Shown: positions 31,064 to 48,034 of the stretch, piece by piece
Numbering within the stretch: position 1 is the first letter of the stretch
Layout of the letters: each line of letters begins with the position of its first letter
Source: Beijerinckiaceae bacterium
GTDB taxonomy: Bacteria > Pseudomonadota > Alphaproteobacteria > Rhizobiales > Beijerinckiaceae
DNA length: 64,000 nucleotides
Assembly (NCBI GenBank): GCA_027532775.1
Contig: JAPZTO010000001.1
Coordinates: 930,001 to 994,000 of the forward strand
Reading direction: 5' to 3'
Notes under the pieces: model-generated
Database searches by the model: none
What the model saw: only the letters and a program-made list of their open reading frames with translations
Told to the model about the DNA's origin: nothing
Translations under genes and position numbers: made by a program

Positions 31064-31215
31064 GCGTATCCTCGGCGTAGAGGCCGGAAGTTGGGCTCCC
31101 GCCGGCGGCAGGGCCATGGCCTTTCCTGTTGCCGTATCGTGCAACCCGGATTCGCCGAGAACAAGGGTCTTCGAGACCCGGCAGGGCGATGATGCGCGCC
31201 GCTGCTGCAAACGGG

Positions 31216-31300
31216 CCCCAAACAGCAAAAAACCGGCCTTTCGGGCCGGTTTTTGGGTACTAACGGTTGGTGCCGAAAGTCAATTTGGTGCCAGGAGAGG
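31216..31300. repeat. attL: left direct repeat of the island
   Basis: 85 bp nearly identical to 47880-47965 (one substitution in the T/G run, one missing C in GGTGCC-AGGAGAGG). It contains the terminator hairpin and the last ~17 bases of the tRNA-Leu 3' end, so it is the displaced tRNA tail. Confidence 0.85.
31227..31254. terminator. Terminator hairpin inside attL
   Basis: AAAAAACCGGCC pairs with GGCCGGTTTTT around loop TTTCG. It is a copy of the tRNA-Leu terminator at 47891-47919 and can act on both strands. Confidence 0.75.
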
Positions 31301-31361: not shown

Positions 31362-31384
31362 AGGCCCACATTTTGGCCCACAAA
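31362..31384. other. Candidate integrase arm-type sites, left end
   Basis: Two tandem GGCCCACA units (AGGCCCACATTTTGGCCCAC followed by AAAA) lie 62 bp inside attL. The same double unit occurs at 47818-47840 by the integrase gene. The rest of the gene-free stretch 31301-31714 shows nothing I can name. Confidence 0.55.
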
Positions 31385-31714
31385 ATTTATGGTTGCCGGC
31401 GAAAATCGGCGAACATTAGCGGTCGTCGAGTTCTTAAGCAGAGTTGCAGGGAGGTCACACAAGGGGTGCTCGCCGGATGGGAGCTCGGAAGCAAAGGTTT
31501 GGGACGGTCCGCTTCGCGCCCCCATTCCCGTCGTTCAGGCAAACTTTGCCTGCGCTTGAAAGCAGACTTTGCGGCTCGACAACGGACACGACCGCGTCGC
31601 TGCCTCGTTACAGACGTTCGAACGGTGCGCCTTTAGCTTGCTTAAACTGACGGGCAGGGAAGTTTCCGCGCTTGGGGCGCGCTGTAGGCGTGGAACGCGC
31701 GTGCGGTCGAAATA

Positions 31715-34700
31715 CTACGCGTTTGGCTCCTGCCAAGCGGCCTCGCCGCGGCCAATACGGAATATCTGTGTTGTCTGTCGATCAGCGGAAAAACTGACAT
31801 GCATCAGGCTCGGCGTATGCTGTCGAAGCCTGTGTCGGATCGAGGTGATGTGGCGATAGTCCGGTGTTGCAACGGAAACCGCGCCGCTGTTAGCGTCAAT
31901 CTCTATCCGTCCTGGAATATCAGGATCGACCAAGGTCGGGATCGGACCGTTGAGGCGCCAGTCCTGCGCCTCCCACTTTACTGTTCCGCCAATGAGAGCA
32001 TCTTCTCGGAACTTCTTCCAAACTGAGGCGGTCATCAGCGTCGGCCAATCTGGCTGATCGGTCAAAGCTGCAATCTGGTTGCTTGCAAGCCATTGGTTCA
32101 TTTCCGCCACCGTGACAAATGCGGGCCTAGTGTCGCGTATAGCGGTCATGGCGGCGACGCGTGACGGTAGGCCATTCCTGATCAACATCGCCATCATCGC
32201 CTGCGGAACGCCTGTCTCAAGTGTCGCGGCCGCGCTTCCCTCAATCATCTCGGACTCACCGCCATTGGCGCGCCGCCGCATTCGGATGGCTTCGATCGCC
32301 CACACCAGGCGGTAGACGAACGCGTCCTCAACGACGCGCATTTTGTCCACGCCAAAGGCTACGACGTCTACGCCGCCAAGCCAGGAGCGAAGCAGATCTT
32401 CCCAATTGGCTGGGAGGTCCTCGTCAGGTCGGAACGGACGTATCGCGAAGAGATGCCGCCCCATGGCTGCTAAGGACGCGCTCAACACATCTAGGTTCCC
32501 GCCAAGCGCGGCGCCGTCCGCTTGGTCGAGAAGTGCGGTCAACTCGTCCGCGACGGCGTCGATAGCAAGCCCGGACTCAAGACCAATCCCCATAGCGAAC
32601 GTCGCTCGCCTCTGCGCCGGTGTCGACTTGTTCCAGATCAGCCGCGCCCGTGCCTGTAGGAGCCAAAGTTCGTCGTTCCGCAGCTGCGGCGCCAGTCGCG
32701 CGATTTGACGCGACCACAACGAACCGGTCAAAGCTTCGTCGAGAAGGCGGGGAAGGTCGACGCTCTCGGCGTCGAGCGCTTCGACGAGACCGAACACAGT
32801 CGCATCGAGCTTCTCGATCAGGCTTTCAATCGTCTCGGTGTCGCCCGCTTGATCCGGCGGGAACCACGCCGGCTGCGAGTTGGCTAGGTATTCCATCGCG
32901 TCAGCGCGCATGAACATGTTCACGCGCCGCAGGCGGTTCAGCACCTCCGCTACGATGGTGATGATGCCGCTCAGCAGCGCCCGCGCCTTTGCTGACCGAA
33001 CAAGATCGCGCCATGCCTGAAGCCGCCACTCTTCGGGCTCGTACATGACATGAAGGATTAGCCCCTCGAGGTCGACGAAGGCGCGACCCGCGCGACCTGC
33101 CACGTTCGCAAACTCCTCCCCGGACAACGGGATGCCGGCCCGGTACAAGTTCGGAATCAGAAGCACTGCGGCATTTAGGTTCAAACCCTGTGCGAGCGTC
33201 GGCGATGCGATCGTCACCCTCAATATTCCAGCCGAAAGCAGCGCTTCGACCTCGCGCAGGAAAGGCCCGGGCAGTCGGCCGTGATGGATGGCCACGCCGA
33301 GCCGCAGACACTGCACAGCAGGATGGTTTTCACCCAGCCATTCCCGGCCGATGGCCATGGCGCGCTCTACCTGGCCTTCATCATCGAGAAGAGCCGGCAG
33401 ATAGCCGCGACGGTTGAGATCGACGATCGCTTCTGCATACCCCTCCACATGATCGCGCTGCGTGCAGAAGACAAGCGAACGTTTCCCCTGCACAGAGAAC
33501 TTCCAGGCAGCCGCAAGCGTCAGTTCCCTCGTGTTGCGAGGGAAGGGCGTACGACGTGGTCGCCGAGCGGGCTCTTCTTGTACAAAATGCCGAATGAAGG
33601 GACCTCTAGCCTCGAGGTCGAAGCTCAGTCGAGCGGAATGTCCCATCCAAGCGAGAGTTCCGAAGCGCTGACGCGTGGGTCGCCAACTCGATTGGATCGG
33701 AGCACCCGGAGTGTCGCTGCGGATCCAGGAATTGAGGTCGTTGAGCTGATCACCTTCGGGCAGAATAGCGGAAAGACAAACGATCCGACGCGCGGCATTG
33801 TCGGGACGACGAAGCAGCCTTTGAACAAGGTTTTCGAATCTGATCTCACGCTCGCTCGGGCCGATCAGATGGCCTTCATCCAACACGACCAGCCCGATAT
33901 CGTCGATAATCGACGCATCGTTTCGCAAAGCGAAGTCCAGCTTCTCGGGCGTGGCGATGACAATGTTCCGCGACCGTAGGGCGTCCTCATCACCAAGCGC
34001 CGCGCCACTCGCGCCGTATAGAGATGAGACCGTAAACCCGAGGCTGCCGAACGTCTTCCGGAAAGACCTTTCGGTCTGCGCCGAGAGCGCACGCAACGGT
34101 GTGACGATCAGCACGCGACGTCCGAGCGACAGGGTCATGAGGGCAGCGATTTCTGCGATCCTAGTTTTCCCCGCGCTCGTAGGAAGCGCGACGACCAGAT
34201 CGTCGGTCATATCTGTCGCCCGGCGAGCTGCTTCTGTCTGGGAAGGCCAGAGCTCGACCTCGGCAATCGCGCGACTGTAGAGCTCGCCGACAAAAAGCCG
34301 CCTGAGCGCTGCGTAGTTCTCCGATCCGGGCGGGCCTTCGACCGGGAGAACCTGATGGAGGCTGCTCGACCAAAGATCATCGATCAGATTGAGCGCGATG
34401 CGCGCCATCCACCACATGGAAACGGATCCGGCATTTCCGGCGAGGGAGACGGCGCGCTGGAGCAGGGATCGCGCCTCCTCGATAAGCACGGCCATGCCTG
34501 TTTGAAGTCCGAAATCGAAGAAGGCCAGCGCGCGGTAAACGGTTGAGGTCAGCACAATCTGGATGACGTCGTCAGGATCGATCTCGCCCTGTTGAGCGAG
34601 TTGGACAACTTGTTGGTCGCTGTTGACAGGATTGCGGAGCCAGCCCCGCGATCGCGCACTCAAGGTCGTGAGGTCTCGCAGGATCAGCAGCGCGATCGCT

Positions 34701-35122
34701 TCCTCGACCGGTGAAAAGTTGGGATCTTCCGGTCGTTGCGCAATCAAGGAAAACGCCAAAGCGGAGTATCCCGCCAGATGATACCCTGCTGCTCCCGCAA
34801 TTCGGTAAAATCCCCTCATAACGTCATTGGGCAATCCATTCTGAACGAGCGCCTCGAGTGTATTGCCCGCCTGTACAAAGCCGCGCCGCCATACCTCCGG
34901 CTCACCGTTTGCCTCACGAAGCGCCATCGCCGCTCGCAAAAGCGACAGCCCGTACTCGGCGAGATCGGTATCGATGGTATCGCCGAATGGCGGCGCATCT
35001 TCGGGCAAAAGGCCCTCACGGCGGATGATTGCCCTCGCTTCTCCGCGGGCGCGCAACCGTCCACGCGCCCCATCAGCCGTCACAGCATTCAGAAATATCG
35101 TCAGCTCCTCAACCGATTCCAA
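31715..35122 (-). CDS. hamB: HamB, SF2 DEAD/DEAH-box helicase of the Hachiman anti-phage system
   Basis: A 1135-residue helicase. An N-terminal helical domain of about 290 residues precedes a Ski2-like core: Q-like LWPSQTEAARRA (292-302), Walker A PTSAGKT (314-320), motif Ia TPLRALSAQTE, Walker B VVLDEGH (412-418), motif III LSAIL, and in the second RecA domain TIASPTLAQGLN and NVAGRAGRA. About 400 C-terminal residues follow. The start is a TTG at 35122: a stop lies 8 codons upstream, no ATG or GTG intervenes, and AGGGAG is well placed. It overlaps the hamA stop by 14 bp, so the two are translationally coupled. In Hachiman, HamB senses DNA ends or damage and releases HamA. Confidence 0.9.
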   Translation of the reverse strand: MESVEELTIFLNAVTADGARGRLRARGEARAIIRREGLLPEDAPPFGDTIDTDLAEYGLSLLRAAMALREANGEPEVWRRGFVQAGNTLEALVQNGLPNDVMRGFYRIAGAAGYHLAGYSALAFSLIAQRPEDPNFSPVEEAIALLILRDLTTLSARSRGWLRNPVNSDQQVVQLAQQGEIDPDDVIQIVLTSTVYRALAFFDFGLQTGMAVLIEEARSLLQRAVSLAGNAGSVSMWWMARIALNLIDDLWSSSLHQVLPVEGPPGSENYAALRRLFVGELYSRAIAEVELWPSQTEAARRATDMTDDLVVALPTSAGKTRIAEIAALMTLSLGRRVLIVTPLRALSAQTERSFRKTFGSLGFTVSSLYGASGAALGDEDALRSRNIVIATPEKLDFALRNDASIIDDIGLVVLDEGHLIGPSEREIRFENLVQRLLRRPDNAARRIVCLSAILPEGDQLNDLNSWIRSDTPGAPIQSSWRPTRQRFGTLAWMGHSARLSFDLEARGPFIRHFVQEEPARRPRRTPFPRNTRELTLAAAWKFSVQGKRSLVFCTQRDHVEGYAEAIVDLNRRGYLPALLDDEGQVERAMAIGREWLGENHPAVQCLRLGVAIHHGRLPGPFLREVEALLSAGILRVTIASPTLAQGLNLNAAVLLIPNLYRAGIPLSGEEFANVAGRAGRAFVDLEGLILHVMYEPEEWRLQAWRDLVRSAKARALLSGIITIVAEVLNRLRRVNMFMRADAMEYLANSQPAWFPPDQAGDTETIESLIEKLDATVFGLVEALDAESVDLPRLLDEALTGSLWSRQIARLAPQLRNDELWLLQARARLIWNKSTPAQRRATFAMGIGLESGLAIDAVADELTALLDQADGAALGGNLDVLSASLAAMGRHLFAIRPFRPDEDLPANWEDLLRSWLGGVDVVAFGVDKMRVVEDAFVYRLVWAIEAIRMRRRANGGESEMIEGSAAATLETGVPQAMMAMLIRNGLPSRVAAMTAIRDTRPAFVTVAEMNQWLASNQIAALTDQPDWPTLMTASVWKKFREDALIGGTVKWEAQDWRLNGPIPTLVDPDIPGRIEIDANSGAVSVATPDYRHITSIRHRLRQHTPSLMHVSFSADRQTTQIFRIGRGEAAWQEPNA

Positions 35123-35927
35123 TGGCGAGTGCTCCCTCGTACGTCACCCGAATGAAGTTCTGATGGTCCTCGATGCGAAGATGAACGACCGTCTGGCCCC
35201 GATCTGCACCGGCGGCCTGAAGGTCCACTTCAAGGGCGCGCGGCGCGGCATTGCCCGATAGGGTGAAGATCGCGTGATCGATACGCGCGGCGGGTACGGC
35301 GCGGTTGGCAACCTCATTGCGGATCGTCCGGCCCAGCTGAGTTCCATGACCCTCGACTTCCATCAACCGATCGGCAACGAAGAGTAGCGACGTGGCGGTA
35401 GGCCTGCCGCCGTCGCGGGACAACGCAGCGCGAGCCTCGGCGATGGCGGCGGCGGCGAGATTTGCCCGACTTTTTGCTTCACCCTTCAGCAGGCCGAGCT
35501 CGCCGTCGGCGCCGAGGCGCACACCGATGAAGTCATCGCCGCGCAGCGCCATTTCGCGACCGTCCTTGTAGCGCAGCCTGCGGACTGGAACAGAGTAGCC
35601 GAGATGCTGCTCGACGAGTTCACTGGCAAGTATCTCGCCAAGCTCTCCGGATCGCGCTCGGGCAGCCCGCGGCAATCGCTCTGCCAGCAATGCGGCCGCC
35701 CCCGCGTACCCTAGAGCTGCGATGTCTTCGGCCACTCGCTGCATGTCGTCATAGTGAGAGCGCACAAGATTGGGCAGGCGCCCGGCGATGGCGGCTCTGC
35801 CGTTTTGTCTCTCTGTGTATTTGAGCAAGCGCTTTCGACCATTTTGGTTGGCTTCGCACTCGCACCATTCGTCGAAAAGCGACATAGCCTTCGCCAATTC
35901 CCCTGCAGACCTGCCTAGTGTGGTCAC
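35109..35927 (-). CDS. hamA: HamA, DUF1837-family nuclease of the Hachiman anti-phage system
   Basis: A 272-residue protein upstream of and overlapping hamB. The PD-(D/E)XK-type core is visible: Glu residues in SGELGEILASELVEQHLG (about 93-110), Asp in ALRGDDFIGVR (131-132) and the E-x-K pair in GLLKGEAKSR (Glu150, Lys152). DUF1837 followed by a DEAD/DEAH helicase defines Hachiman, in which HamA is the DNase effector that clears phage and host DNA. The start is GTG at 35927 with GAGG 8 bp upstream; an internal ATG at 35885 is an alternative. The assignment rests on motif, size and gene order, since no search was run. Confidence 0.85.
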   Translation of the reverse strand: MTTLGRSAGELAKAMSLFDEWCECEANQNGRKRLLKYTERQNGRAAIAGRLPNLVRSHYDDMQRVAEDIAALGYAGAAALLAERLPRAARARSGELGEILASELVEQHLGYSVPVRRLRYKDGREMALRGDDFIGVRLGADGELGLLKGEAKSRANLAAAAIAEARAALSRDGGRPTATSLLFVADRLMEVEGHGTQLGRTIRNEVANRAVPAARIDHAIFTLSGNAAPRALEVDLQAAGADRGQTVVHLRIEDHQNFIRVTYEGALAIGIG

Positions 35928-36290
35928 TTAAACTGCCTCAACAGCACCTCCCCAGTCGAGGTCAATTCTTCGACCTATCTTCTACCCTCAGGATCTAGAG
36001 GCCGTCTCCGCTGTCGCGGTGGAAGAAAGTAAGGTTTGACAAGCGTTCAGCAATTCTGCTTGCCGGCTTTATTGGATATCATTCACAGCGATGAACGACG
36101 GCAATCGTGTCGCAAGCGGACAAGCAAACATTGCCTGACGAGTCTGCCGCTGAGCGGTAGCTTATCCCCACGCGGTCGCCAGAACCGGACGGGCAGCGAA
36201 CGGCCCCCAAATCGGACGATGCCTCGTTACCGGAGCGTGCCTTTTCTCAGTTTTGCATTCTGGCGCGCTGAATGACGGCTTTGGGGCCGT

Positions 36291-36830
36291 TTGCGGTCTG
36301 GCGGCTTTCGGCTCGCGTCCAGCGAGGTCAACGAGGCGATGGTCCATCAGTTGCTTGCCGGCGCCGACAACATCGTCTTGATTGGTGGCCCGGGAGCCGG
36401 CAAGACCGACATTGCATCGGCGCTTGGCATCCAGGCTGTCGAGCATCCCCGCAAAAAGGCGCGGTTCTTCTTGACCTTCGATCTGGTCAATGCGCTCGAG
36501 TAGACGAAGGCTGCGAACAAGGCCGGACAATTGGCCGAGCGTCTTATCCGCCTTGATCTCGTGATCCTCGATGAGCTCGGATAACTGCCCTTCAGCCCAT
36601 CCGGCGGCGCGCTCCTGTTCCAGTTGCTCTCCAAGCTCTACGAGCAGACCAGCGTCGTTATTACCACGAACCGCAGCTTCGCCGAATGGGCCGGCGATGC
36701 CACAATGACGACGGCATTGCTCGATCGGCTGACCCATCATTGCCATATCGTTGAGACCGGAGATGACAGCTTCTGCTTCAAGGCCAGCGCCGCAACCCCG
36801 AAAACGCGAAAGGAAAAAGCACGCGCTTGA
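36291..36830 (+). pseudogene. istB: Broken IS21-family istB (transposition ATPase)
   Basis: One frame carries the IstB core: Walker A GGPGAGKTDIASALG, AVEHPRKKARFFLTFDLVNA, then [40 protein letters not shown] and TTNRSFAEW. It is interrupted by stops at 36501-36503 (after NALE) and 36582-36584 (after DELG). The usual Ser-Val-Phe after the Trp is missing and the N-terminus is absent. No istA remains. Sequence resembling an IS21 end follows (about 36870-36920). The 363 bp before it (35928-36290) contain no gene I can support. Confidence 0.85.
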
Positions 36831-36950
36831 CGACCCGCCAATACCGCGGGAAACATCTTCAACCTGGGTCACTCCTCCACGAAAAACTTGGGTCAAATCT
36901 CAGCGGTAATTAACACTTGGCGGGCGGATTGAGTGCCTGAGGAGGTAGTG

Positions 36951-37499
36951 GTGAAGAACGCGGGCTTCAAACGGTTGTGGTCGGAGACGTTTTTCGATTG
37001 GATGGATATTCTTGTCTTTAGAATTTTTTATTCTAGAGAAAGATTTGAAATTGAACAGAAATTGATAATTGATAATGCAAAAAGGGCTGGTTCAGATGAA
37101 ATAAATGTAATATTTGGATTGATGGACTCTATTGACAATAAAGCGTCTGCATTACTTACTCACGTATCGCTTGTAATTGCAACTATAGCCATATTTTTTC
37201 AGGGACTAAAGAGCGAAGAGATTTTTTTTAGGTGGGTATATATTTTTGAAATGGCGGGATGTATTGCAGTCGCCCTGGTTTGCTTGAGGTGTATACGAAT
37301 GTCATCGGGTTCGGCGATGCAGTCTGGGTTGCCTGAGATGTTGGGCGCTACTCTTCCATCTGCGGAAGATAAAGAGTTGGTCCAAAGGCTTGGCTATGAG
37401 ATGTTTTGCAGGCGAATTCTTTATAATTTTGCATCTTCAGTATCAGCGTTATTGACCATAATTTTCTCTTTGTCGGTTGTCATGCACCAACTTATTTAG
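36951..37499 (+). CDS. AT-rich membrane protein with a Pycsar-effector-like (PycTM) pattern
   Basis: A 182-residue protein, much more AT-rich than its surroundings. An amphipathic N-terminus is followed by MDSIDNKASALLTHVSLVIA, where D-x-KAS-x-LL directly precedes the first helix. That is the pattern of PycTM and related 2-3TM effectors (helices at about 67-84, 94-113 and 158-182). Such proteins kill the infected cell by damaging the inner membrane. No cyclase gene is adjacent, so the Pycsar label is tentative; it could be another membrane toxin. The start is a GTG at 36951 with GGAGG 5 bp upstream; GTGs at 36948 and 36933 are in frame. Confidence 0.55.
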   Translation: MKNAGFKRLWSETFFDWMDILVFRIFYSRERFEIEQKLIIDNAKRAGSDEINVIFGLMDSIDNKASALLTHVSLVIATIAIFFQGLKSEEIFFRWVYIFEMAGCIAVALVCLRCIRMSSGSAMQSGLPEMLGATLPSAEDKELVQRLGYEMFCRRILYNFASSVSALLTIIFSLSVVMHQLI

Positions 37500-37552: not shown

Positions 37553-37833
37553 ATGAAATTCACCCTGTTCTGGCTCAAAGCGCATTTCACCACCGACGCC
37601 TCGCTCGACCAAATCGTCGAAAACCTCACCCGCATCGGGCTCGAGGTCGAGTCGGTCGATGATCCCGGCAAGAAGCTCGGGGCCTTCACCATCGCCCACG
37701 TTGTTTCCGGCGAGCAGCCCCGAATGCGGATCGCCTCAGGTTCTGCTGGGTCGATGGCGGCGCGCCGGTGCAGGTGGTCTGTGGTGCGCCCAACGCAAGC
37801 ACCGGAATGAAAAGCGTGGTCTCGCCGCCCTGA
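37553..37833 (+). pseudogene. pheT: Fragment of pheT (phenylalanyl-tRNA synthetase beta chain), frameshifted
   Basis: The first 56 codons read [20 protein letters not shown] and on to HVVSGEQP, the N-terminus of PheT. A one-base loss at about 37718-37720 shifts the frame. The family sequence resumes in the new frame ([33 protein letters not shown]) and stops at 37831-37833. About 93 of roughly 800 codons remain. It is not functional and was presumably carried in with the island or left by an earlier insertion at pheT. Confidence 0.85.
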
Positions 37834-38713: not shown

Positions 38714-38919
38714 GATCAAACCTTCCGCAAGCATCGACAAGGGAGTTCGCACCTTCGAAGAAGAGTTGCCTCCGCTGCGCCGAGGCTGGCAAAACTGGGG
38801 TGGATCTTCCATCCTCCAGAAGGATCGCCCAGCCGATTGCAGGATCATCCAAATGTCTGGGCCATTCCAACGCAGCGCTCTTGCATGCTAACCTCTCACT
38901 CGTCCTGGAGACCTTCCCG

Positions 38920-39585
38920 ATGCGCGTTCTAGTCGTCGATGATCATGCCCTGATCCGGGAGGCCATGGTCTCGATCCTGCGCGAGATCAGGCCGGGCGCC
39001 GAGATCGAGACGGCCGCCGATGTGCGGTCCATGTACGAGATCCTGGACAAGGGAGCCGTTTTCGAACTGCTGCTGCTGGACCTAAACTTGCCTGATGGAC
39101 ACGGTCTACCCCTGCTGGAGGGGGTCATCCAGCGCTATCCTGCCCTGCCAATCGCGGTTCTCTCCGCCGAGCGCGATCCATCGGTGATGCGACGAACAAT
39201 CGAGGTCGGCGCACAGGGCTATATCGCGAAAACAGAGCCGCGCGACTTGCTCATCAGAGCGATCGAACTCATCCTCGCCCATGGAGTTTATGTCCCGCTC
39301 GCCGCGCTCGGGCCTACCCTAAAGCCGTCAGGGCCGACTGAAGATGACGTTCCCCGTGTAGCAACTCCATCGCCGGTCTCGCTCGGCCTGACAGACCGGC
39401 AAGTGGAAGTGCTGGCACTCCTCATGCAGGGAAAGAGCAACAAGCACATCTGCCGGGATCTTTCTCTCGCAGAGCCGACTGTAAAAAATCACATATCGGC
39501 GATCCTGCGAGCCCTGAACGTCAACAGTCGCACCGAGGCCGTGCTGGCTGTCACGAAGTATGGCTGGTCTCTGGGGAAGCCCTGA
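38920..39585 (+). CDS. NarL/LuxR-type response regulator
   Basis: A 221-residue regulator. The receiver has acidic residues Asp7-Asp8, phospho-acceptor Asp54 (LLLDLNLPDG), Ser/Thr in AVLSAERD and Lys in YIAKTEP. The LuxR helix-turn-helix is GLTDRQVEVLALLMQGKSNK then SLAEPTVKNHISAILRALNV. Start at 38920 (MRVLVVDDHALIREAM) with GGAG upstream. It is convergent with the hybrid kinase gene and overlaps it by 35 bp; the two are presumed partners. Its targets may include the PQ-loop gene across the divergent gap. Confidence 0.92.
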   Translation: MRVLVVDDHALIREAMVSILREIRPGAEIETAADVRSMYEILDKGAVFELLLLDLNLPDGHGLPLLEGVIQRYPALPIAVLSAERDPSVMRRTIEVGAQGYIAKTEPRDLLIRAIELILAHGVYVPLAALGPTLKPSGPTEDDVPRVATPSPVSLGLTDRQVEVLALLMQGKSNKHICRDLSLAEPTVKNHISAILRALNVNSRTEAVLAVTKYGWSLGKP

Positions 39586-41821
39586 GCGCGGAACTTCTCA
39601 ACCGGACGAGGACCGTCCTGAGCCGAAGCGGTGAGATCGGTTTCTCAAGAAGCAGGAGACTGGCGGCCTGCGCACGCGCACGAGCTTCATCGCGGACATC
39701 CCCGGAAATGATCACGGCCGGGATCTCGCAAAGGAACCGGTTGCGCAGGGCCTCGATCACGGTCGGTCCTTGAGGCCCGCCCTCGATATGCAGATCGGCA
39801 AGGATCATGTCGGGCGCTTTGTCTAGCAGCCTGGCGATCGCCTCGTCCTGCGAACGCGCCGTCAGGACCTCACAACCCCATTCACGCAGCAGGCCAGCCA
39901 TACCCGCGAGAATAGCCTCGTGATCATCGATCACCAGAATCCGGGCCCCGGCAAGCCGTTGATCAGCACCACCATGGGCGACTTTCGGCTGCATGACGGC
40001 AGGAACGACAGGAACGACAATGCGGAAGCACGATCCTTGGCCGGGCCGCGAGCAGACGGCCACATCAAGGCCGAGAATGCTGGCGAGGCGCGCCACGATC
40101 GCTAGCCCGAGGCCAAGGCCCTCATTCCGAGCGTCTTGACCTGCATACCCGGATCGATGGACCTGGTAGAAATCCTCGAAGATCCGGGCTTGCTCCTGTT
40201 CCGGGATGCCGATGCCGCTATCCCAGACTTCAATGCGGACAGCGTTGCCACGGGGGCGAACGCCGACGACAACCCGTCCGCGTTTTGTGTAGCGAACCGC
40301 GTTGCTTACAAGGTTGAACAGGATGCGCTGGAGGAGGATCGCGTCTGACCGAACCCAGAGATCGGTTGGACGACACCGCAAGGCCAGATCCTTTCCCTTT
40401 GCTTCCTGTAAAAATGTCGCCTCGACATGGTCAAAGACCGATTGCAGCGGGAAGTCCCGGATATCCGCCCGCACCGCGCCGGCTTCAAGCCGCGACACAT
40501 CCAGGAGATTGTCGAAGAGCCCGTTTATCGAAGCCATGGCTTGCTCGATGCGCGATCTCAGCAAGATGTCGGGCTGCTTCCCGTCAGACGCGGATAGCTG
40601 CGCGACGAGCAGGTTCAGGGCGTGCAGGGGCTGCCGGAGATCATGGCTTGCGGCGGCAAGAAACCGTGACTTGGCAAGACTGGCCTCTTGCAGCTTCCGG
40701 GTCCGGTCCTCGACTTGTTCTTCGAGCCCGGTCCTCGCGCGCTCGAGTTCCGTCGCCATCACGTTGAACTCATTCCCGAGCGCAGCCAGTTCATCATCGC
40801 CTTCGATCCGGATCCGATGGGCCAGCTCGCCACGTCCGATCCGCGCTGCACCGTCCGAAATGGCCTGGATTGGCCGCACCATCCGGTAGGCGAGGATCGA
40901 GGCGATGCCGAGCGCCGCGAGGAAGCTCAGAACGCCGATTGCCGATGACCGCCACAAGGTCCGGATCAGCGGCTCCCTGGCCTCCTGTTCGGGAATTTCG
41001 AGAACAAGGTTCCAATCCGGAACCGGGATGTTCTGATAGGACAGAACGGCCCTTTGCCCGGCAAGTCCCTCAGCGACCTGAATGGCTCCATCTGACTGTG
41101 TACGTAACAGCGAAAGAATTCGCGACGCGTCCGTGTTGCGCAGGACAACTGCGATATCCGGGTGGGAAATAACGCGGCCGGCCCGGTCGATAACATAGGC
41201 CTGTCCTTGCCGTCCGACGCGTGTTTCCGAAATGGTGTCCTGGGCAAACGTAATGTTGATTTCGGCGAGGATCACGCCGGCTTCCGGCCGTGCTCCGGAG
41301 AGGGCCATAATCATCAGGGGTTCACCGGCCTGTTCGAAATAGACCGGGCCGTAGAAGTGGCTATCCCGTCTGGCTGTTTGAACGGCGGGTTCGGTGGACC
41401 GGTTCGCCTGCGAATCCTGTTGATCAACGCCAGTCCGTGAAACCACGAGGCGTTCCCGGCCATCCTTGTCGATGAACGCTACATGGTTGATTGCCGGAAC
41501 TTGCTTCATGACCCGTAGTGCATCGAGGCGATGCTGTGCTGCGTCGCCGTGATCCCAGCCCAGATGGGTCAAGAACCGCAACTGTCCTTCAATACCTTGC
41601 AGGAAACTGGCAATCCGGTTCGCCGCCGATGCTGTGTTGGCCCGCTGGATCTCAATTTGCGAAGCCTGCTGTTCCTGGGCTGCAAGCCATACACCCATCA
41701 GGGTGTAGCCAATCAGCGGAACACCGACGGCGGCGATGAAGAAAGCGATGTATTTCCCGAGGAGTGACCGCAAGCGCACCGGCATGAATTTACTGGAGCG
41801 AACTTGCCCTCCGTCAATCAT
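39551..41821 (-). CDS. Hybrid sensor histidine kinase with periplasmic Cache-like domain
   Basis: A 756-residue kinase. One helix at about 24-47 and another at about 291-314 bracket a periplasmic region of about 240 residues resembling a double Cache sensor (VAFIDKDGRERLVVSRTGVD, AYVIDRAGRVISHPDIAVVL). HAMP follows (RPIQAISDGAARIGRGELAH), then HisKA with His393 in ASHDLRQPLHAL, ATPase boxes N (NLVSNAVRYT), G1 (DSGIGIP) and G2 (GLGLGLAIV), and a C-terminal receiver with Asp676 (ILADLHIEGG). The ATG at 41821 lacks a clear ribosome site; 41785 is an alternative. The binding-protein gene at 41961 is divergent from it. Confidence 0.9.
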   Translation of the reverse strand: MIDGGQVRSSKFMPVRLRSLLGKYIAFFIAAVGVPLIGYTLMGVWLAAQEQQASQIEIQRANTASAANRIASFLQGIEGQLRFLTHLGWDHGDAAQHRLDALRVMKQVPAINHVAFIDKDGRERLVVSRTGVDQQDSQANRSTEPAVQTARRDSHFYGPVYFEQAGEPLMIMALSGARPEAGVILAEINITFAQDTISETRVGRQGQAYVIDRAGRVISHPDIAVVLRNTDASRILSLLRTQSDGAIQVAEGLAGQRAVLSYQNIPVPDWNLVLEIPEQEAREPLIRTLWRSSAIGVLSFLAALGIASILAYRMVRPIQAISDGAARIGRGELAHRIRIEGDDELAALGNEFNVMATELERARTGLEEQVEDRTRKLQEASLAKSRFLAAASHDLRQPLHALNLLVAQLSASDGKQPDILLRSRIEQAMASINGLFDNLLDVSRLEAGAVRADIRDFPLQSVFDHVEATFLQEAKGKDLALRCRPTDLWVRSDAILLQRILFNLVSNAVRYTKRGRVVVGVRPRGNAVRIEVWDSGIGIPEQEQARIFEDFYQVHRSGYAGQDARNEGLGLGLAIVARLASILGLDVAVCSRPGQGSCFRIVVPVVPAVMQPKVAHGGADQRLAGARILVIDDHEAILAGMAGLLREWGCEVLTARSQDEAIARLLDKAPDMILADLHIEGGPQGPTVIEALRNRFLCEIPAVIISGDVRDEARARAQAASLLLLEKPISPLRLRTVLVRLRSSALRASPETSHTS

Positions 41822-45799: not shown

Positions 45800-46566
45800 A
45801 TCTTCGGCATGGCAGAGGCGACCTGCTTGCGGGTAGGTTTTGGGCCGCCGCCAAGCGTCACCAATTGTTGAATGAATTGAACGAATGGAGGGTCCGAATC
45901 TCCCGCTGGAATGTTCCTTGGGCTTATACTTGCCGCTCGCCCTGAAAGGCCTGTCCAAGCCGGTATTGCCATAAACACGAGAGCGGTAAGTGCAGGGTCT
46001 TTTGGAGCTCCTGTTTTTCTAGCAAGAAGGTTTTTATTTAATTTTTGTTCTCTTATATAGCGTGAAGTGGCTTCTAAATTTTTTAACTTCTGACAAAATA
46101 TTTGTGATTTTTTGAAAGAAACTCGTGCTGTTTGAGCAAAATCCACGTTTCCTGATGCTTTTAAGAACTCGTCATCATAGAGAAAATCACTGGCAATCGA
46201 ATTTCTTAAAAAGCGGTCTACCCAAGCAATATGCTTGTTCTTTTCTACCTCCAGCGGATCGCTGCTTGAAAATGCCGAATTGTGTAATTTTTCTAATCCA
46301 TAAACAATTTTTTTGCATGAATTTTCTATCTCTAGAATCATGCGATTAATTTCTTGTGGGTTTGGAAGACTTGCAAATTCTGTTATTTTGTTTCTACGCT
46401 CAGAATAGGCCCAAATTATTTTCATTATTACAAATATATGATTGTATTTTTCTTTTTCATTGCAACTCCATTTCTCAATGACGGATTTTATTTCACTGCT
46501 TTTGTTAAAAATTTCTGCAATCCCAATTTGATTTGATTTTGACGATACGCCACCATCGCGCGACAT
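45775..46566 (-). CDS. Unknown AT-rich protein, start overlapping the integrase stop
   Basis: A 263-residue protein I do not recognise. The first ~200 residues are Lys/Asn/Ile-rich and AT-rich (IFNKSSEIKSVIEKWSCNEK, RMILEIENSCKKIVYGLEKL, VSFKKSQIFCQKLKNLEATS), mostly alpha-helical. The last ~65 residues (LTALVFMAIPAWTGLSGRAA, TLGGGPKPTRKQVASAMPKI) return to high GC, a composition break inside one frame near 46000. Its ATG overlaps the integrase TAA (TAATG), so it is translated with the integrase. It could be variable cargo fused to a conserved integrase-linked tail. Confidence 0.6.
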   Translation of the reverse strand: MSRDGGVSSKSNQIGIAEIFNKSSEIKSVIEKWSCNEKEKYNHIFVIMKIIWAYSERRNKITEFASLPNPQEINRMILEIENSCKKIVYGLEKLHNSAFSSSDPLEVEKNKHIAWVDRFLRNSIASDFLYDDEFLKASGNVDFAQTARVSFKKSQIFCQKLKNLEATSRYIREQKLNKNLLARKTGAPKDPALTALVFMAIPAWTGLSGRAASISPRNIPAGDSDPPFVQFIQQLVTLGGGPKPTRKQVASAMPKIRPQLQEK

Positions 46567-47786
46567 TACCTCATTCTCCCTTCAGAATTGTCTTTTTTGT
46601 CGATACGGAGCTCATCAAGATAATCCGCCCACCACTGGGCCATGCGCTGACGTTCCTCGAAAAAATCAGAACGCGAATAGATGGCTCGCACCGCGTTCTT
46701 GTCCTTGCGCGATTGGGCGATCTCGATTGCGTCCGCTGAAAAGAGCCCGCTCTCATTCAAGATGGTGGAGGCCGTCGCACGAAAGCCATGCGAGGTCATT
46801 TCATCCGCACCAAAGCCCATGCGGCGCAAGGCGATGTTCAGGGTGTTTTCGCTGATCGGCTTCCTGGCGGAAACGATGCCCGGGAACACCAGGTCTCCGC
46901 GCCCGGTGATCGTGTGCAACTCGCGCAGGATGGTGACGGCTTGACGAGCCAGCGGCACACGCTGGTCGCGGCGCATCTTCATTCGAGATGCGGGAATGCT
47001 CCAAAACGCCTTGTCCAGATCAAACTCGCGCCATTCGGCTTTGCGTAGCTCGCCCGGCCGCTGGTAAACGAGCGCCATCAACTTGAGCGCTGCAACGGTT
47101 TCGGGTTGGCCTCGGAAGCCGTCGACCGCGCGAAGCAACTCGCCAAAGCGGGCCGGTTCAAGAATGGCGGCGCGATGCTTCACTTGCGGCTTTGCCAGTG
47201 CACCGCGCAGGGCGAAGGTCGGATCATTGGTGGCGCGCCCTGTGGCCACGGCAAAGCGGAAAACCTCGCCGATGCTCGAGCGCATCCGCCTTGCGGTCTC
47301 CAGCCGCCCGGTGGACTCCACCGCCTGCAGCACTTTCAGCACCTCCGGTGGCGTGATCCCAGCAATCGGCCGCCTGCCAAACGCGTCGCCTGCAAGACTG
47401 TAAAGCCACTCGCGCTTGCCGATCGTGTTGGAGGCCTTGCCCTCGCGCTTCTTCTTGGCCAGCAACTCGGCAGCGACGGATGCAAATGTGTGGGCCTCGC
47501 TGTCGAGTTTGTGGGCCTTTGCCGCTTTCTCGTGATCAAAGGGATCAATGCCATCGGCCAACAGCGTCTTGGCTTCACTGCGCTTGGCTCGGGCCTTTTC
47601 CAATGTGACGGTCGGATAGGCCCCGAATGACAGCTTGCGCTGGATGCCTTTGGCGTTCCGATACATCAGTACCCAAAGCTTGGAGCCAGACGGCATCACC
47701 CGAAGCTGCAATCCGCCACCATCCGACTTTTTATAGGGCTTTTCCGCCGGCTTGAATCCGCGAATGGCTAGGTCGGTCAACGGCAT
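46566..47786 (-). CDS. int: Tyrosine-type integrase (P4-like)
   Basis: A 406-residue integrase. The N-terminal DUF4102 arm-binding domain is MPLTDLAIRGFKPAEKPYKK, with LSFGAYPTVTLEKARAKR. The catalytic residues are Arg in YQRPGELRKAEW, His and Arg in SHGFRATASTIL, and Tyr in VRAIYSRSDFFEERQRMAQW. Such integrases use tRNA 3' ends, and the intact tRNA-Leu lies 164 bp upstream of its start. The ATG at 47786 is chosen from the family N-terminus; the frame upstream runs through the arm sites and attR. All functional residues are present, so it could be active. Confidence 0.93.
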   Translation of the reverse strand: MPLTDLAIRGFKPAEKPYKKSDGGGLQLRVMPSGSKLWVLMYRNAKGIQRKLSFGAYPTVTLEKARAKRSEAKTLLADGIDPFDHEKAAKAHKLDSEAHTFASVAAELLAKKKREGKASNTIGKREWLYSLAGDAFGRRPIAGITPPEVLKVLQAVESTGRLETARRMRSSIGEVFRFAVATGRATNDPTFALRGALAKPQVKHRAAILEPARFGELLRAVDGFRGQPETVAALKLMALVYQRPGELRKAEWREFDLDKAFWSIPASRMKMRRDQRVPLARQAVTILRELHTITGRGDLVFPGIVSARKPISENTLNIALRRMGFGADEMTSHGFRATASTILNESGLFSADAIEIAQSRKDKNAVRAIYSRSDFFEERQRMAQWWADYLDELRIDKKDNSEGRMR

Positions 47787-47787
47787 T

Positions 47788-47840
47788 TGTGGGCCTCGCG
47801 CCTGTGGGCTTTCGCCAAGGCCCACATTCAGGCCCACAAA
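47788..47840. other. Candidate integrase arm-type sites, right end
   Basis: AGGCCCACATTCAGGCCCAC at 47818-47837 (then AAA) matches the left-end double unit, and two inverted units (TGTGGGCC near 47788-47795 and TGTGGGC near 47803-47809) precede it, just upstream of the integrase start. Confidence 0.55.
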
Positions 47841-47879
47841 CCACACGACTGTCAACGGAGGCGCCCGAACGCCAACGAA

Positions 47880-47965
47880 CCCCAAACAGCAAAAAACCGG
47901 CCTTTCGGGCCGGTTTTTTGGTACTAACGGTTGGTGCCGAAAGTCAATTTGGTGCCCAGGAGAGG
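47880..47965. repeat. attR: right direct repeat of the island
   Basis: 86 bp matching 31216-31300. It contains the tRNA terminator and runs 16 bases into the 3' end of the intact tRNA-Leu (including its encoded CCA), which marks the insertion point. Confidence 0.85.
47891..47919 (-). terminator. tRNA-Leu terminator (inside attR)
   Basis: A perfect 12-bp stem, AAAAAACCGGCC with GGCCGGTTTTTT and loop TTTCG. On the tRNA strand it ends in TTTTTT, a classical intrinsic terminator 31 bp after the tRNA. Confidence 0.85.
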
Positions 47966-48034
47966 ACTCGAACCTCCACGGCTTTCACCACTGGTACCTG
48001 AAACCAGCGCGTCTACCAATTCCGCCACCTGGGC
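47950..48034 (-). tRNA. tRNA-Leu (anticodon CAG)
   Basis: Reverse strand begins GCCCAGGTGGCGGAATTGG. The acceptor stem GCCCAGG pairs with CCTGGGC, the anticodon loop is TT-CAG-GT on a CTGGT/ACCAG stem, and a long variable arm is present as in Leu tRNAs. The T-arm contains GGTTCGAGTCC, and CCA is encoded. It decodes CUG, the main Leu codon in this genome. Its 3' end is the island's insertion site and is kept intact. Confidence 0.95.

Follow-up and report, generated by a model that had tools for sequence, protein, structure and literature searches.

The window analysed here is a stretch of 64,000 nucleotides from a Beijerinckiaceae bacterium (assembly GCA_027532775.1, contig JAPZTO010000001.1, positions 930,001 to 994,000), and all positions below count from its first letter. 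Two open reading frames (ORFs) lie on the minus strand, 35109–35927 (272 amino acids (aa) from a GTG) and 31715–35122 (1135 aa from a TTG), with 14 bases in common. They are a genuine Hachiman HamA1-HamB1 pair, directly adjacent on one strand. Both ORF coordinates and the 14-base overlap are as claimed by a first-pass annotation, which had been made from the letters of the sequence. The pair has the following features.

35109–35885, minus strand: hamA, DUF1837/HamA nuclease, 258 aa from the likely ATG (272 aa from GTG 35927)
31715–35122, minus strand: hamB, Ski2-like DEAD/H helicase, 1135 aa, TTG start; PADLOC and PDB matches
35472–35480, minus strand: E-A-K catalytic residues of HamA, 136–138 from the ATG and 150–152 from the GTG; aligned with the residues mutated in 8vxy, HamA E138A,K140A
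33869–33880, minus strand: DEGH helicase motif of HamB, residues 415–418; aligned with degh of 8vx9_B, D415 corresponding to its residue 431
35109–35122, minus strand: overlap of hamA and hamB, TTGGAATCGGTTGA, which includes the stop of HamA as well as the TTG start of HamB; TTG at the corresponding position in 88 of 96 loci
35132–35138, minus strand: likely hamB ribosome-binding site GAGGGAG, inside hamA and 9 bases before the TTG (position read from the sequence); anti-Shine-Dalgarno duplex −7.7 kcal/mol

The HamA protein matches the Pfam family HamA (PF08878) with 56.1 bits against a cut-off of 25, which is its sole Pfam match. It also matches the PADLOC HamA1 model PDLC00159 at an expect value (E) of 2.4e-93 over residues 15–267 of the 272-aa numbering. 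Both results come from the profile search that the first-pass annotation had proposed. HamB matches the PADLOC HamB1 model PDLC00174 at E 0 with 1490 bits over residues 1–1131. These two are the best-scoring PADLOC models for the pair, by a wide margin over the rest and with no difference seen; the HamA2 models are weaker for HamA (best E 7.3e-07). The nearest PDB sequences are those of the E. coli Hachiman complex 8VX9, with E 9.1e-41 for HamA (8vx9_A) and 8.2e-245 for HamB (8vx9_B). All these family matches are much stronger than chance would give.

The catalytic motifs are retained in both proteins. KGEAK stands at residues 148–152 of HamA in the 272-aa numbering, which puts E150-x-K152 where the earlier annotation had it; that numbering holds from the GTG. 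Counted from the likely ATG start, GDDF is at residue 116 and KGEAK at 134, giving E136-x-K138 with D-GExK intact. All 28 sequences of an alignment, the window's own included, carry D117, D118, E136 and K138. The helicase motifs of HamB, Walker A TSAGKT at 315, DEGH at 415 and GRAGR at 676, are also intact.

An AlphaFold2 model of HamA, built from 27 sequences, has a mean predicted local distance difference test score (pLDDT) of 89.1. Foldseek aligns it with 8vx9_A at a template-modelling (TM) score of 0.82, with 34% identity and a root-mean-square deviation (rmsd) of 4.1 Å. Three PDB chains match the model at E ≤0.001, all of them from E. coli Hachiman (8vx9, 8vxy, 8zue), and the next matches are weak, with the restriction enzymes EcoO109I (TM 0.21) and FokI (TM 0.27). 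E136 and K138 lie on the predicted strand 130–140. On the HamA side, the proposed structure check thus places the E-x-K residues within a predicted nuclease fold. Pfam, PADLOC, PDB sequences, predicted HamA fold and catalytic motifs all agree on Hachiman, the system originally named for this locus. The E. coli ECOR31 HamAB (8VX9; PMC12278908) is alike in both proteins, in the catalytic E-x-K and in DEGH, and its HamA is the one 34% identical in the structure search.

A Hachiman variant, either AbpAB (an extra Cap4-like nuclease and a dead HamA) or HamMAB (a trypsin-like protease fused to a dead HamA), would have the helicase family in common with this pair, and the weaker match to the HamA2 models could point the same way. 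However, the present HamA is 258–272 aa long, has HamA as its sole Pfam match and keeps D-GExK, and Pfam finds nothing in the nearest ORF of ≥80 aa upstream on this strand (36162–36896). We consider such a variant very improbable. The AbpAB type was set aside as Pfam finds no N-terminal Cap4-like domain in a short protein with an intact nuclease motif, and the HamMAB type as HamA has no protease Pfam match and the upstream ORF is not the expected metallo-beta-lactamase nuclease by Pfam. A HamA-SAVED fusion, taken from a plasmid annotation (H11), was also rejected; the annotated product is 252 aa, and the fusion looks like a naming artefact.

The start of HamA is most likely ATG 35885 rather than GTG 35927, because alignments with the PADLOC HamA profile and with E. 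coli HamA alike begin at residue 15 of the 272-aa reading, which is this in-frame ATG. The ten nearest loci, identical copy excluded (L043–L052), were checked for in-frame start codons farther upstream than the aligned start region; there is none in six (L043, L046, L047, L050, L051, L052), but the other four (L044, L045, L048, L049) do have such a codon. The predicted ribosome-site strengths of the candidates are similar (GTG −5.6, TTG 35897 −6.7 and ATG −5.5 kcal/mol) and do not discriminate, so the GTG was set aside only as unlikely. The first-pass annotation had called both starts of the pair weak codons. This stands for the TTG of HamB; for HamA the ATG is probable instead.

Relatives of the pair were compared at 97 loci, of which L144 was left out for a HamA cut off at the sequence end. 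Some genomes are probably present twice, through the use of two collections, and sets thinned at 70% HamA identity (18 loci) are therefore also given. With starts assigned by rule around the aligned position, HamA begins with GTG in 59 of the 96 loci, ATG in 34 and TTG in 2, none being found within the range searched in L105. After thinning, 15 are ATG and 3 GTG.

The gene pair lies within a 16.7-kb island at a tRNA-Leu, with an integrase and end repeats.

31207–31300, plus strand: left-end attachment repeat; identical to 47871–47965 in 90 of 95 aligned columns
47871–47965, plus strand: right-end attachment repeat, which overlaps the 3′ end of tRNA-Leu (repeat alignment; ARAGORN)
46566–47885, minus strand: tyrosine integrase adjoining the right attachment site (Pfam Arm-DNA-bind_3, Phage_int_M and Phage_integrase; PHROG 1 integrase)
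47950–48034, minus strand: tRNA-Leu (CAG), the likely integration target (ARAGORN)
31509–36218, no strand assigned: block of 4,710 bp, 99.4% identical to another locus of a sister species (blastn against contig C2 of genome G002)

The empty site is seen in two members of the genus (G013 and G015), where the backbone up to 31300 joins that from about 47870–47880; one copy of the repeat is present there, and so is the same tRNA-Leu. Genomes G002 and G012 have other DNA between the transketolase side and the repeat. In the 61 genomes searched, HamB has a match at E ≤1e-60 in three, namely the window's own, G002 and G005. The HamAB block of G002 stands at a different place and is 99.4% identical to that of the window; the backbone that the two species share is 90.9% (10.2 kb) and 93.2% (4.8 kb) identical. 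Because the block is so much closer than this backbone of 91–93%, the comparison indicates that HamAB moved recently between places in two related species. Integrase-like ORFs also lie beside the G002 copy; one is 67% identical in DNA to the window's integrase over 548 bases, and the other was judged by eye. The coding differences between the two HamAB copies are synonymous in 15 of 21 cases, and no stop arises.

Several other elements were noted inside the island. Short repeats, AGGCCCACATTnnGGCCCACAAA, lie just within its ends at 31362–31384 and 47818–47840 and may be integrase arm sites. The plus-strand ORF 36933–37499 encodes 188 aa of low G+C content with no Pfam match and weak PADLOC matches to PycTM (E 0.00038), perhaps a membrane effector. 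At 37553–37810 on the plus strand, a match to the first 55 positions of TIGR00472 (phenylalanine-tRNA ligase beta; E 2.7e-08, far below the cut-off) marks a broken piece of pheT. A response regulator on the plus strand and a hybrid sensor kinase on the minus strand occupy 38800–41821 with overlapping 3′ ends; at E 1e-150, none of the other 16 searched genomes of the genus matched the kinase.

For E. coli HamAB, it has been shown that HamB holds HamA in check as long as DNA is intact and switches it on upon DNA damage, and that HamA E138A,K140A or HamB D431A abolishes defence (PMC12278908). The residues matching these mutants are present in the window, and an E. coli-type mechanism is therefore the best inference for its HamAB. 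By analogy, HamB would bind HamA and hold the nuclease inactive while DNA is intact. On meeting DNA with a free single-stranded end, HamB would spend ATP to activate HamA, and the activated nuclease, of the PD-(D/E)xK type, would degrade both phage and host DNA in an abortive infection. Very probably, then, the island carries an intact Hachiman system, whose function in the host we infer.

Several points weigh against this reading. The solved homologue is only 34% identical to HamA in the structure search, at an rmsd of 4.1 Å, and it probably belongs to a sister group in which hamB starts with ATG after a 17-base overlap, judged by an E. coli HamA of equal length, 259 aa, that belongs there. 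Within HamA alone, three of the five differences between the window and G002 copies alter a residue. The pair is intact and has moved recently; in other respects it is an ordinary example of a known system. It adds a clean alphaproteobacterial Hachiman with direct evidence of a HamAB block moving between places in two related species.

The start of HamB is more unusual. Across the 96 loci, TTG with a 14-base overlap occurs in 88, GTG with 14 bases in one (L063), ATG with a 17-base overlap in six and ATG with no overlap in one; after thinning the counts are 13, 0, 4 and 1. Since TTG with exactly 14 bases recurs in 88 of the 96, the comparison supports it as the correct start of HamB. L073 was set by hand to the TTG/14 class, as the script took another frame and the TTG is visible in the sequence; its HamB seems broken, the match covering residues 1–45 only. 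The class of L041, counted among the six ATG/17 loci, is unsure, since a further ATG there lies at exactly 14 bases. Within 60 bases upstream and 30 downstream of the HamB start, 57 of 88 loci of the 14-base class (L073 outside this count) have no other start codon, and 31 have one. As a small yardstick, of 39 other genes in one stretch of a Sinorhizobium plasmid, 31 begin with ATG, 5 with GTG and 3 with TTG.

The 14-base class is found in Alpha-, Beta- and Gammaproteobacteria, in one Pedobacter, and in single metagenome bins labelled Eremiobacterota and Nitrospinota. Relatives in Bradyrhizobium, Mesorhizobium and Shinella (L043, L044, L045), with HamA 72–75% identical, share the TTG and the equal overlap, but their aligned HamA start is TTG (L043) or GTG (L044, L045) where the window has ATG. 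The homologue of E. coli strain H15 differs from the window in having ATG and a 17-base overlap for HamB. Both the TTG and the likely ribosome site lie inside hamA, and HamA and HamB are therefore probably made in a coupled manner, with HamB translated, as it appears, from 14 bases within hamA.

Why the TTG is kept can be approached through the HamA codon over it. This codon is CTT in 84, ATT in 2 and GTT in 1 of 87 TTG loci (L073 and L063 left out); among the 2313 remaining Leu codons of these genes, CTT accounts for 15%. Because of this difference, it is probably the HamB start that maintains the third-base T of CTT; the first T may be preserved by the hydrophobic HamA residue. Since the TTG overlaps a codon for a hydrophobic residue of HamA, throttling need not be invoked to account for its conservation. 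The two T would be locked as the second and third bases of that codon, with no translational purpose required, and ATG or GTG would change the usual Leu to His or Arg, thereby freezing the TTG. We give this explanation somewhat better than even chances. In a 48-row HamA tree, the HamA start codons, which are not tied in this way, need at least 14 changes, compared with three in all for the HamB start states, one of them (L063) within the 41-row clade of 14-base loci. The deep branches of this tree are weak and some rows long, so that the split of the ATG/17 and 14-base groups is not firmly placed. Against a strict lock, L063 has GTG with Arg in HamA, and the sister group has Asp or Asn at that place with an ATG start. 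Nor is a strict need for Leu obvious, as the HamA tail (residues 251–258) is the end of a helix with a mean pLDDT of 71, the joint lowest block together with 111–120.

Alternatively, the TTG may be selected as a weak start which, paired with a good ribosome site inside hamA, would determine the HamA:HamB ratio, keep levels low and avoid self-damage. The recurrence of TTG with an equal overlap (13 of 18 loci after thinning) fits this explanation, as does GTG being the commonest HamA start before thinning; after thinning, however, ATG prevails there. In 33 of 41 loci the ribosome site exceeds in strength the average of synonymous recodings, yet the excess is modest (mean rank 0.295), is absent in the other 8, and comes from a test that treats related loci as separate. 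Hachiman expression is mildly toxic according to PMC12278908, which would agree with a need for restraint. In contrast, ATG is the HamB start of the sister group. Eleven loci of other Hachiman families were also compared near the HamA stop, with the downstream frame taken as putative hamB; 10 of them offer an ATG candidate, and 1 has only a GTG. In L122 and L123 that frame stays open for no more than 306 and 342 bases, and in L128 and L129 the first candidate is a GTG. We regard selection for throttling as possible but rather unlikely, and the freeze by the shared codon as the more likely of the two.

A bolder proposal concerns one widespread Hachiman subfamily as a whole: its near-invariant UUG, preceded by a ribosome site internal to hamA and lying 14 bases within that gene, would act as a conserved set-point of translation, fixing the helicase:nuclease ratio and the threshold of self-destruction; this we hold to be doubtful. 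The fixed TTG with its 14-base overlap nonetheless offers a concrete, easily tested feature of how a nuclease-helicase pair may be balanced. It is the sole feature of this system for which no description was found. Within the parts covered of the literature on Hachiman, start codons and translational coupling, no report of a conserved HamB TTG was found. The main text of PMC12278908 does not contain 'start codon', 'overlap' or 'operon', nor does PMC12799240 contain 'start codon', 'overlap', 'TTG' or 'UUG', and passages of PMC9581028 yielded nothing on Hachiman starts.

In the phage collection searched, no HamA relatives were found. Plasmids carry them in 57 records, 42 of which are typed conjugative, and DNA near-identical to the ATG/17 type is present in 26 of 5426 E. 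coli genomes. On one plasmid typed conjugative, from Sinorhizobium fredii (L146, 11870–14273), HamAB adjoins an AbiEii-type toxin gene and a DUF6088 gene.

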